The translations under genes were made by a program, and so were the position numbers. 55,457 nt of DNA from Undibacterium sp. (GTDB taxonomy: Bacteria; Pseudomonadota; Gammaproteobacteria; Burkholderiales; Burkholderiaceae_D): contig NZ_JAUSFI010000040.1 of NCBI RefSeq assembly GCF_030651495.1, positions 1 to 55,457 of the forward strand, read 5' to 3'. The notes beneath the pieces are model-generated. The model was not told where the DNA came from and searched no databases. It saw nothing but the letters and a program-made list of their open reading frames with translations. Positions 34,133 through 36,843 of the stretch are shown here, one piece after another. The first letter of the stretch is position 1. Every line of letters starts with the position of its first letter.

Positions 34133-34492
34133 ATGCAAAAACGTAAACTGATCGCCCCTGTATTGTCTGCCATCACGGTCGCCATTTTATCTATGAGCGC
34201 CGTCACTTCCTTCGCTGCCGCACCGGTGGCGATCGCGCAAGCTGAAGCACCAAGCATGACCCAGAAAGCAGCGGTCGCAATAGAAGATTCAGTGATTACT
34301 GCCAAAGTAAAGCGTGCTCTGGTATCGGATAAAGAAGTCTCTGCGCTGAAGATTAATGTTGCCACCAAAGGCGGTGTTGTTATCCTGACTGGCGCTATAC
34401 CGTCTGCCGCAGCTGGTGATCGCGTCGTCAAAATGGTGGCAGTGATTGAGGGTGTAAAAGACATCCAAAGCGAACTGCAAGTCAAAGGCTAA
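34133..34492 (+). CDS. Periplasmic BON-domain protein
   Basis: A 119-residue secreted protein. A signal peptide covers about residues 1-28 ('SAVTSFA'). One BON domain at about 50-117 has 'DSVITAKVKRALVSDKEVSALKINVATKGGVVILTG' (quoted in part) and 'RVVKMVAVIEGVKDIQSEL', matching OsmY and related proteins that bind envelope phospholipid. AAGGA precedes the ATG. It follows the two-component locus by 223 bp on the same strand and might be a target of it, but no sigma54 promoter is clear in that gap. Confidence 0.85.
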   Translation: MQKRKLIAPVLSAITVAILSMSAVTSFAAAPVAIAQAEAPSMTQKAAVAIEDSVITAKVKRALVSDKEVSALKINVATKGGVVILTGAIPSAAAGDRVVKMVAVIEGVKDIQSELQVKG

Positions 34493-34594: not shown

Positions 34595-34624
34595 TTGACG
34601 CAACACCCAAAGTTCATTTATAGT
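34595..34624 (+). promoter_or_regulatory. Probable sigma70 promoter of the leu leader
   Basis: TTGACG (34595-34600), an 18 bp spacer and TATAGT (34619-34624). Transcription would begin about 6-8 bases after the -10 box, at 34630-34632, which is on the ATG of the first leucine-rich ORF. The mRNA would then be leaderless or nearly so. The hexamers are seen; activity is inferred. Confidence 0.6.
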
Positions 34625-34630
34625 CAAATC

Positions 34631-34759
34631 ATGTCTTCTACATCGATCACATCTACTGCCTCATCAATGACCCGCGCCAGGAAAAACCTGCTGCTGGCGT
34701 CTTCGGCATGGATGCTGCTAACTCTGCTAGCGCTACTGGCAACGCTACTAGGTAAATAA
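34631..34759 (+). CDS. Leucine-rich short ORF 1, candidate leu leader peptide
   Basis: A 42-codon ORF whose second half reads 'NLLLASSAWMLLTLLALLA', with 11 Leu in total, encoded by six CTG and five CTA codons. CTA is normally a rare codon. It lies directly at the proposed promoter with no ribosome-binding site, consistent with translation from a 5'-terminal AUG as known for rhizobial trpL. Its position about 375 bp ahead of leuA fits a leader whose translation senses leucine supply. The alternative is a small single-helix membrane protein. It is too short for usual gene callers. Confidence 0.55.
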   Translation: MSSTSITSTASSMTRARKNLLLASSAWMLLTLLALLATLLGK

Positions 34760-34819
34760 TCACCAGTAGCAACATCGGCAACATCGTTTTATCTCTCGAA
34801 TCACCCACCAGCATCATCC

Positions 34820-34845
34820 GAGTTAGCCAGCGGCTAACTCTTATT
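34820..34845 (+). promoter_or_regulatory. Hairpin after leader ORF 1, possible attenuator
   Basis: GAGTTAGCC (34820-34828), loop AGC and GGCTAACTC (34832-34840) form a perfect 9 bp stem followed by TTATT. The left arm GAGTTAGC is also fully complementary to GCTAACTC at 34717-34724, inside the leucine codons of ORF 1, so two mutually exclusive pairings exist. The U-run is weak, so full termination is uncertain. Confidence 0.5.
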
Positions 34846-34857
34846 AAAAAGCGCAAT

Positions 34858-35001
34858 ATGCATTGCATCACGAACCCTGTAACGAACATCTCTGGCGCCG
34901 CTGTCGCTACGATGTTCTTTGCCCGTTCGTCGCAGGCAGAATCCACTTTATCAGTAACCCTACTGACGCTACTGGCACTACTGCGATTACTGACCGGTTA
35001 A
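34858..35001 (+). CDS. Leucine-rich short ORF 2, second candidate leader peptide
   Basis: A 47-codon ORF (ATG 34858; internal ATG 34912) ending 'LSVTLLTLLALLRLLTG', with nine Leu in the last 17 residues coded by CTA, CTG and TTA. The core 'LLTLLALL' is shared with ORF 1, suggesting duplication. No good ribosome site is visible. A stem CTGACCGG (34990-34997) / CCGGTTAG (35030-35037), with one G-T pair and an inner GGCC/GGCC pairing, overlaps its stop codon, so translation of the ORF would disturb the structure ahead of leuA. Confidence 0.45.
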   Translation: MHCITNPVTNISGAAVATMFFARSSQAESTLSVTLLTLLALLRLLTG

Positions 35002-35136
35002 CTGGCCTTGCGTTAGCTTCATGTGGCCGCCGGTTAGCCTGTTTGCCACTTCCCCCCATTTTGAATTTATCCGCTCTGACCTAGTGTAATTTCACGCTAT
35101 GGCGAGCCGACGTTTATTACAAGAAAGAAGCACGTG

Positions 35137-36843
35137 ATGTCACCTACTCCGTCAAACAAATACCGCCCTTTTCCTGCCATACAGCTGCTTGACCGAACCT
35201 GGCCGGACCAAATAATCAGCCAGCCGCCGATCTGGATGAGTACCGATTTACGCGATGGCAATCAGGCCTTGATAGAGCCGATGAACGCGGCTAAAAAATT
35301 GCGATTCTTTGAAATGCTGGTCCACATCGGCATCAAAGAAATTGAAGTCGCCTTCCCTTCCGCATCCGATACCGATTTTGATTTCGTGCGCAAATTGATC
35401 ACCGAAAATCGTATCCCAGACGACGTCACCATCGAGGTGCTGACACAGTCGCGTGAAGACTTAATCCGTCGCACCATAGAGTCGGTACAAGGCGCCCGGC
35501 GCGCCATCGTGCATCTGTACAATCCGATCGCCCCCGCTTTCCGGCGCATCGTGTTTAATATGTCGCGTGAAGAGATCAAGGCCATTGCCTGCAATGGCAC
35601 ACGCCTGATAAAACAATTGACCGACCAGCGCCCCGAGACCGAATGGGTATTTGAATATTCACCAGAAACCTTCAGCATGGCAGAGCTGGATTTTTCAAAA
35701 GAAGTCTGTGATGCGGTATCCGCGATCTGGCAACCCAGCCCCGCACGCAAGATGATCATCAATTTACCGACCACCGTCGAGTGCGCCACACCGAATATTT
35801 ATGCCGATCAGATTGAATGGATGCACCGCCATCTGGCCAGACGCGACGCCATCATCCTCAGCGTGCATCCGCACAATGACCGCGGCACTGCCGTAGCATC
35901 AGCCGAACTGGCCATCATGGCGGGAGCGGATCGGGTAGAAGGCTGCCTGTTCGGCAATGGCGAGCGCACCGGCAACGTCGATCTGGTTACCCTGGCCCTG
36001 AATCTGTATACCCAGGGCGTCTCTCCGGGACTCGATTTTTCTGACATTGACGCCGTCAGGCAATGTGTCGAAAGCTGCAATCAATTGCCGGTGCACCCGC
36101 GCCATCCGTATGTGGGCGATCTGGTGTTTACCGCGTTTTCCGGTTCGCATCAGGACGCGATAAAAAAAGGCTTGGCCCAACAAGCCAAGGACACCCTCTG
36201 GGAAGTACCGTACTTGCCTATCGATCCGGCTGATCTTGGCCGCAGCTATGACGCCGTGATACGCGTCAACAGCCAGTCGGGCAAAGGCGGCATGGCATTT
36301 TTATTGGAACAGGAATACGGCCTGGTCTTGCCGCGCCGCCTGCAAATCGAGTTCAGCCGTGCGGTACAAGCCGCAGCCGACCGAAGTGGCCAAGAAATGA
36401 CGGCAAACGCTATCCATACCATTTTCTGCCAAGAGTATCTGGGTACATCCCCGGCTACCGCAGCGACTTACGCCTATCAAGCCCATCACATTCTGGAACA
36501 CAGAACACCGTCATCTGATCCTGCGCATTTACAATTGAGCATCGATCTGCTGCACCACGCACAGCCACAAGCGCTGCACGGTGCAGGTTGTGGCACACTC
36601 GATGCCATCGTGCAGGCCTTTCAAACAATAGGACAAGAAATCAGCATCATGGACCAGCATCAGCATGCCGTAACGGTCGACCAGCAAGCCAAAACAGCCT
36701 GCTATATTGAGCTGCGCAGCAACGACGGCATCACGCGATTTGGCGTGGGAATCGATGACAATGCGGTCGCGGCGACGATACTGGCGATAGTCAACGCTTT
36801 GAATCGGGATGCCGGGGCGCGGGAAACCAGACTAGCGGCATAG
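35137..36843 (+). CDS. leuA: 2-isopropylmalate synthase
   Basis: A 568-residue enzyme of the long (type 2, actinobacterial-like) LeuA class, starting at ATG 35137 with an alternative GTG three bases before. It condenses acetyl-CoA with 2-oxoisovalerate, the first committed step of leucine synthesis. The HMGL-like TIM barrel shows '[15 protein letters not shown]' (about 33-47) and metal-binding '[13 protein letters not shown]' (about 247). A C-terminal regulatory LeuA dimer domain follows from about 440, where leucine feedback acts. It stands alone, without leuBCD, behind a leader with two Leu-rich ORFs, suggesting control by leucine supply at two levels. Confidence 0.93.

Follow-up and report, generated by a model that had tools for sequence, protein, structure and literature searches.

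The enterobacterial leu attenuator, leuL, has one leader and an intrinsic terminator. In that system a leader peptide with rare CUA control codons precedes the leucine genes, and replacement of CUA by CUG is reported to have cut the sensitivity of the attenuator in S. typhimurium (PMC1183508). A different arrangement is found in the Actinobacteria, where the LEU element combines an ORF with leucine codons and interleaved helices before leuA, with a base stem that joins the leucine run to the leuA Shine-Dalgarno sequence (PMC1262725). Tandem leaders are represented by the ermA type, for which one proposed model holds that ribosomes stalled on the first leader switch on translation of the second, and that those stalled on the second allow the gene to be translated (PMC8274638). 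Lastly, the rhizobial trpL transcript is described as beginning at the ATG of the leader ORF, with Trp codons, one leader, and a terminator and antiterminator (PMC7298713). The open-access literature searched yielded no tandem leucine leader before leuA, in line with the original prediction, which regarded such a doubled leader as not known to be described; the proteobacterial attenuator comparison of Vitreschak 2004 may list some of these leaders.

The locus considered here lies on the forward strand of a 55,457-nucleotide stretch from Undibacterium sp. (positions 1 to 55,457 of contig NZ_JAUSFI010000040.1), the whole of which is referred to as the window. A promoter, TTGACG-N18-TATAGT, occupies 34595..34624 (TTGACG at 34595-34600 and TATAGT at 34619-34624) and is separated by a 6-nt gap from an ATG at 34631, so that transcription is predicted to start at, or adjoining, the first base of leader ORF 1 (34631..34759). 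This ORF, predicted to be leaderless and conserved as a class, has 42 codons, of which 11 specify leucine and five are CTA; leader ORF 2 (34858..35001) has 47 codons, including nine for leucine (three CTA, four CTG, and two TTA). Downstream and in the same direction is leuA (35134..36843, starting at GTG 35134 or ATG 35137), which encodes a long-type 2-isopropylmalate synthase, as judged from matches to NCBIfam TIGR00970 and PRK03739, both above cut-off. Upstream of the leaders, on the same strand, is an OsmY-like gene (34133-34492; matches to PRK10568 and PRK11023 in NCBIfam fall below cut-off). The original prediction had placed two leucine-rich ORFs, this promoter, and a long-type leuA here, with an LLTLLALL run in both leaders, and in all of these points, the leucine and CTA counts included, it was borne out. 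The run is spelled CTG CTA ACT CTG CTA GCG CTA CTG in ORF 1 and CTA CTG ACG CTA CTG GCA CTA CTG in ORF 2; it is absent as a shared motif from all three relatives examined (L003, L138, L098). First-order Markov shuffles of the 542 nt gave at least one such leucine-run ORF in 419 of 5000 cases and two in 14 of 5000, so a single ORF of this kind is not rare while the pair is. The comparative evidence for the leaders is far stronger than this local shuffle test.

Comparison was based on 80 named loci (among the matches listed, of 593), loci from a search of the family that gave a match in 142 of 195 genomes, and 100 fetched regions. Removal of 12 duplicates and of L020, which has no upstream DNA, left 197 distinct loci, and 147 of these, mostly from Oxalobacteraceae, form the main set; L003 (of which L083 is the duplicate) is Undibacterium hunanense, of the same genus as the window. 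The conservation that the original prediction proposed to look for upstream of related leuA genes is indeed present: a promoter at leaderless distance followed by an AUG-first leucine-run ORF precedes long-type leuA in 125 of the 147 loci, compared with 1/2940 Markov controls and 1/147 on the reverse strand. The promoter spacer and the gap to the start codon are nearly constant (18/6 in 97 of the 125, 18/7 in 16, 17/7 in 11, and 18/5 in one), and the start codon is ATG in 125/125, GTG and TTG having also been permitted by the search. This constant promoter-to-AUG distance supports a leaderless first ORF. The cut-off applied to leader 1 is conservative, as five loci (L005, L016, L151, L183, L188) have the promoter and a weaker leucine ORF. 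Beyond the main set, promoter and leader 1 occur in 2/50 loci.

The second leader ends in an RNA element, described below. Leader 1 and this element occur together in 108 of the 147 loci, or 118 if variants are counted, and in 91/147 leader 1 is accompanied by a leader 2 with at least three leucines in its last 12 codons. Apart from the 118, seven loci have leader 1 only, nine the element only, and 13 neither. Four loci (L019, L022, L179, L180) in which leader 1 stands alone near leuA, without the leader-2 element, are a natural single-module version. A second leuA in the window's genome, of the short type (L002:1210-1346, G000:C45), has its own leucine leader, MNFALISFSISAKTNLSGLLSLLVLTALNLLVR, with CTA as five of its ten leucine codons, and this leader is preceded by TTGCAC-N17-TATAGT-N6-ATG, a spacing from which it too may be leaderless.

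The RNA element consists of two interleaved helices. The 5' arm of H1, GGTTAACTGGC (34996..35006), overlaps the end of ORF 2, whose TAA stop sits within it, and pairs with GCCGGTTAGCC (35029..35039) in a covarying helix of 11 bp. H2, GUGGC:GCCAC, has its 5' arm (GTGGC, 35023..35027) within the H1 loop and its 3' arm (GCCAC, 35045..35049) past H1. In many loci leader 2 ends in CTA-CCG-ATC-GGT-TGC-CTG-GCC-stop or a similar series, the last codons of which pair with the downstream arm of H1. The element was found by complementarity in 117 of the 147 loci, with a further 10 variants, compared with 6 of 2940 shuffles; at least three leucines are present in the last 12 in-frame codons before H1 in 100 of the 117, and fewer in 17. 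Covariation was assessed on an alignment of 53 rows, selected with a search pattern in which H1 pairing is not required, and the window, which matches the resulting model with an E of 3e-10, is itself one of these rows. H1 is paired in 98.1% of cells, with double changes in five of its 11 pairs, and for H1 and H2 jointly 44 double-changed cells were counted as against 13.0 in shuffled alignments; the signal is lost when the partner arm is slid, and RNAalifold recovered H1 unprompted. Since the search pattern partly imposes invariance on H2 in this alignment, only variants count as covariation evidence for the second helix, and these are the compensatory GCGGC:GCCGC in L178, L185, L187, L190, and L198 and CTGGC:GCCAG in L138, a locus from the same genus as the window. 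Scans against Rfam, T-box included, gave no family above gathering threshold in the window or in 10 relatives, and at relaxed thresholds the window stretch and five relatives gave unrelated weak hits only.

As aligned, H1 and H2 share no bases, so that both could be present at once in a pseudoknot. When the unblocked window sequence is folded by the model, H2 dominates, with H1 at 0.03; across loci, H2 forms in a part of them only, even with the H1 5' arm blocked (mean 0.05 to 0.24). In Herbaspirillum (L013, L017, and relatives) and in L229 the element is kept with a leucine-poor leader 2, and CTA is still found just before H1. Inspection of L210 by eye pointed to a possible H2 variant, GCGACA:TGTCGC, beside an H1-like helix some 105-38 nt before leuA. 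A stop-spanning hairpin after leader 1 was considered as a second copy of H1 and rejected, its stems being no stronger than those of shuffled sequence.

Both leaders are biased toward CTA. This codon makes up 599/1018 of the leucine codons of leader 1 (125 loci) and 252/480 of those within the 12 codons that precede H1 (117 loci), compared with 1/1205 in the bodies of 29 leuA genes. Within the window the contrast is smaller, as other genes there use CTA more (7/66, 1/64, and 14/80 leucine codons, with 1/46 in leuA). The position of the codon is also conserved, in that the triplet exactly 9 nt ahead of H1 is CTA in 104 of the 117 loci that have the element.

In many relatives a further link probably connects leader 1 with the start of leader 2. 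No consensus structure emerged when the leader-1 tails were aligned globally; in group-wise alignments a pyrimidine box in leader 1 lies opposite the leader-2 Shine-Dalgarno sequence in four of six groups, that of the window's genus not being among them. Pairing was examined in 77 loci, all other than the window, with a clear leader-2 Shine-Dalgarno sequence. Pairing between the leader-2 start region and leader 1 is 0.625 for native sequences and 0.353 when leader 1 is shuffled, with 40/77 loci exceeding at least 95% of their shuffles. In the 66 strongly pairing loci the box is centred at a median of 27 nt past the AUG (26-28 in 52/66), and the next CTA lies within 20 nt of it in 56. Among 37 representatives of the 77 loci the duplex of the box with the leader-2 ribosome binding site (RBS) is at -11.96 kcal/mol for a locus's own partners and -9.37 kcal/mol for permuted ones, a difference reached in 0/2000 permutations; the excess is greatest for windows that begin 18-24 nt inside leader 1. 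The result was again 0/2000 at 35, 19, and 10 diverged representatives, in a test where related lineages are not fully independent. Controls with the later part of leader 1 (832 and 748 of 2000) and with the box set against the region where leuA starts (1840 and 773 of 2000) were not significant. These data suggest that in relatives the leader-2 RBS base-pairs to leader-1 RNA and would thereby be masked. Pairing is weak in several lineages (for example L084, L087, L091, L155, and L168), and no clear box is seen in the species of the window.

We propose, with a probability of roughly 60%, that the two leucine-rich leaders and the covarying element form a two-step, ribosome-operated leucine gauge that raises leuA expression when charged tRNA-Leu for CUA is short. 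The transcript would begin at the AUG of leader 1, and in many relatives a box some 27 nt into this ORF, usually shortly before CTA, would pair with the leader-2 RBS; the coevolution of the two segments leads us to infer that a ribosome held up at the leader-1 CTA codons would occupy the box and so make leader 2 accessible. In most loci, where CTA stands 9 nt ahead of H1 and the last codons of leader 2 form its 5' arm, a stall at that CTA would let H1 form, while a ribosome at the leader-2 stop would keep H1 open, with the interleaved H2 as the alternative. The coevolution seen in many relatives suggests a relay, and a narrower version of this proposal may be formulated, to which we give somewhat less than even odds: the RNA of a leaderless leucine ORF locks the start of a second leucine ORF, whose stalled ribosome then sets a switch before leuA. 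By the same, slightly unfavourable odds, the main target of one leader peptide would be another leader peptide. In the window's species a hairpin between the leaders may replace the box in the first step. Points that count against the gauge are the potential of H1 and H2 to coexist, the limited formation of H2 in the fold model, the weak pairing of the leaders in several lineages, the 17 element loci with few leucines ahead of H1, and the loci that have a single module.

That hairpin, GAGTTAGCC-AGC-GGCTAACTC, is a terminator-like structure of 9 bp followed by TTATTA (34820..34846), and a leader-1 segment, GCTGCTAACTC (34714..34724), shows complementarity to its 5' half (hairpin at 34820-34840) and is a possible antiterminator, in the window only, since the complementarity was not seen as a family-wide feature. 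The pair invites another explanation, in which two independent leader-peptide transcription attenuators follow one another, each equipped with a terminator and an antiterminator, so that their effects multiply without any relay. Such an arrangement would accommodate the occurrence of single modules in some loci, as well as the runs of T directly after H2 (at least five in 8 nt) that would make H2 a potential intrinsic terminator in L003, from the window's genus, in L084, and in four of 16 loci outside the main set (L033, L036, L042, L070). Against this, terminator-like sites between the leaders are no more frequent than in controls (9/108 loci vs 75/1080 shuffles), and the T-tract after H2, counted apart because the terminator scan took loops of 3-8 only and is blind to H2, is present in just 2/108 loci of the main set and absent from the window; between the element and leuA the scan found 0/108 terminator-like sites vs 52/1080 in shuffles. 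Intrinsic terminators were for these reasons rejected as the general mechanism, and the coevolution of the leader-1 box with the leader-2 RBS likewise speaks against independent modules. Serial attenuation of this kind therefore appears unlikely, although in some lineages H2 may act as a genuine terminator. For the attenuation suggested in the original prediction this means that its leucine-rich leaders prove to be conserved, but that the classical form with an intrinsic terminator is unlikely as a general mechanism, given how rare the U-tract is; the prediction is supported, but it did not include the RNA element in which ORF 2 ends, the coevolving leader box, or the rarity of the U-tract.

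Two other explanations would each reduce the part played by ribosomes as leucine sensors. H1 and H2 could form one pseudoknot, protein-binding or self-acting, as has been proposed for the actinobacterial LEU element, with the leucine ORFs being secondary. The helices interleave without shared bases and both have compensatory changes, the actinobacterial leuA leader is described as a leucine ORF with a pseudoknot (PMC1262725), and some loci retain the element with few leucine codons in leader 2. The preference for CTA, and its constant position 9 nt ahead of H1 (104/117), would be expected of codon-specific stalling and not of protein binding, and we regard the pseudoknot explanation as improbable. 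The role of leader 1 has also to be considered, as it might merely bring ribosomes to the 5' end, for protection or coupling, and leave leader 2 as the only sensor; among the 16 element loci outside the 147-locus set, only L080 passes the leader-1 test. Against this stand a CTA share that is higher in leader 1 than before H1, the seven loci that have leader 1 alone, and the pairing of its box with the leader-2 start region, and a non-sensing leader 1 is the least probable of the explanations considered.

Under the proposed two-step gauge the least certain step is the output. Masking of the leuA RBS by H1 was considered and rejected, as Shine-Dalgarno pairing is unaffected when the 5' arm of H1 is blocked (0.34 to 0.36). 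The leuA RBS is paired with leader 2 at 0.328 in native sequences and 0.261 in shuffled ones, with 20/107 loci at no more than one in 15 shuffles, and in four permutation tests leader 2 coevolves only weakly with the region around the leuA start (3, 112, 47, and 8 of 2000), with no fixed partner position. Given the rarity of a U-tract after H2 and the weak link between the leuA RBS and the element, control is most likely exerted on transcription across the stretch that precedes leuA, perhaps with involvement of Rho. This stretch, counted from H2, is 34.5% C and 16.2% G and is unstructured (mean z +0.93). Unstructured stretches are usual for ribosome-binding regions, and the excess of C over G (0.36) is matched in the first 90 nt of leuA (0.34), so that both properties are weak evidence for Rho.

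The element is not confined to the family. Out of 399 genomes in the order, at least 24 matched the model at E values up to 0.001, as did at least 6 of 369 in the class; these counts include the window's own genome in both, nine of the 24 are that genome or members of the same family, and the scans used stricter filters by which weak matches were lost. Long leuA lies downstream of the element in 20/20 order-level loci (from 25 order-level matches, with the own locus and eight of the same family included) and in 5/5 class-level loci, in L234 as a contig-end fragment only. In the window's own genome this locus is the sole confident match, two others having E values of 3.9 and 8.5 and no leuA match. 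An AUG-first leader 1 is present in one of 11 order-level loci outside the family (L229) and, at the class level, in L234, L235, L237 (where it is short), and L238.

If the two-step gauge and its relay are true, amino-acid attenuation can be a cascade in which one leader peptide regulates another, with a steeper or gated response. The work also adds an RNA element that has no Rfam match in our scans and lies upstream of long-type leuA in 25/25 order- and class-level loci examined, together with a large number of naturally occurring leaders, predicted to be AUG-first, on which leaderless initiation, rare-codon sensing, and RNA switching can be studied in laboratory strains.

This returns us to the systems with which we began. 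With leuL the locus shares a leader ORF that carries codons for the regulated amino acid, rare CUA among them, before a leucine gene; it differs in having two leaders, the first predicted to be leaderless, with a coevolving link between them in many relatives, and in a U-tract that follows the element in 2/108 loci only and not in the window. Candidate alternative structures overlap leader 2, whose last codons double as the 5' arm of H1; this helix covaries and compensatory variants support H2, but the two have no bases in common and may coexist. The likeness to the actinobacterial LEU element is that of a leucine ORF and pseudoknot-capable interleaved helices before leuA; one ORF is described there, compared with two here, and the stem between the leucine run and the leuA Shine-Dalgarno sequence has no fixed place here and shows weak coevolution. 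The ermA-type leaders are likewise arranged in tandem such that, in the proposed model, stalling on the first would activate the second, as is predicted here, but the arrest there is induced by a drug, whereas the signal proposed for leuA is amino-acid starvation, and for leuA a leaderless first ORF is predicted, with a probably transcriptional output. Rhizobial trpL has Trp codons and a single leader with a terminator and antiterminator, and what the leuA loci would have in common with it is the AUG-first leader, predicted here from conserved promoter spacing.
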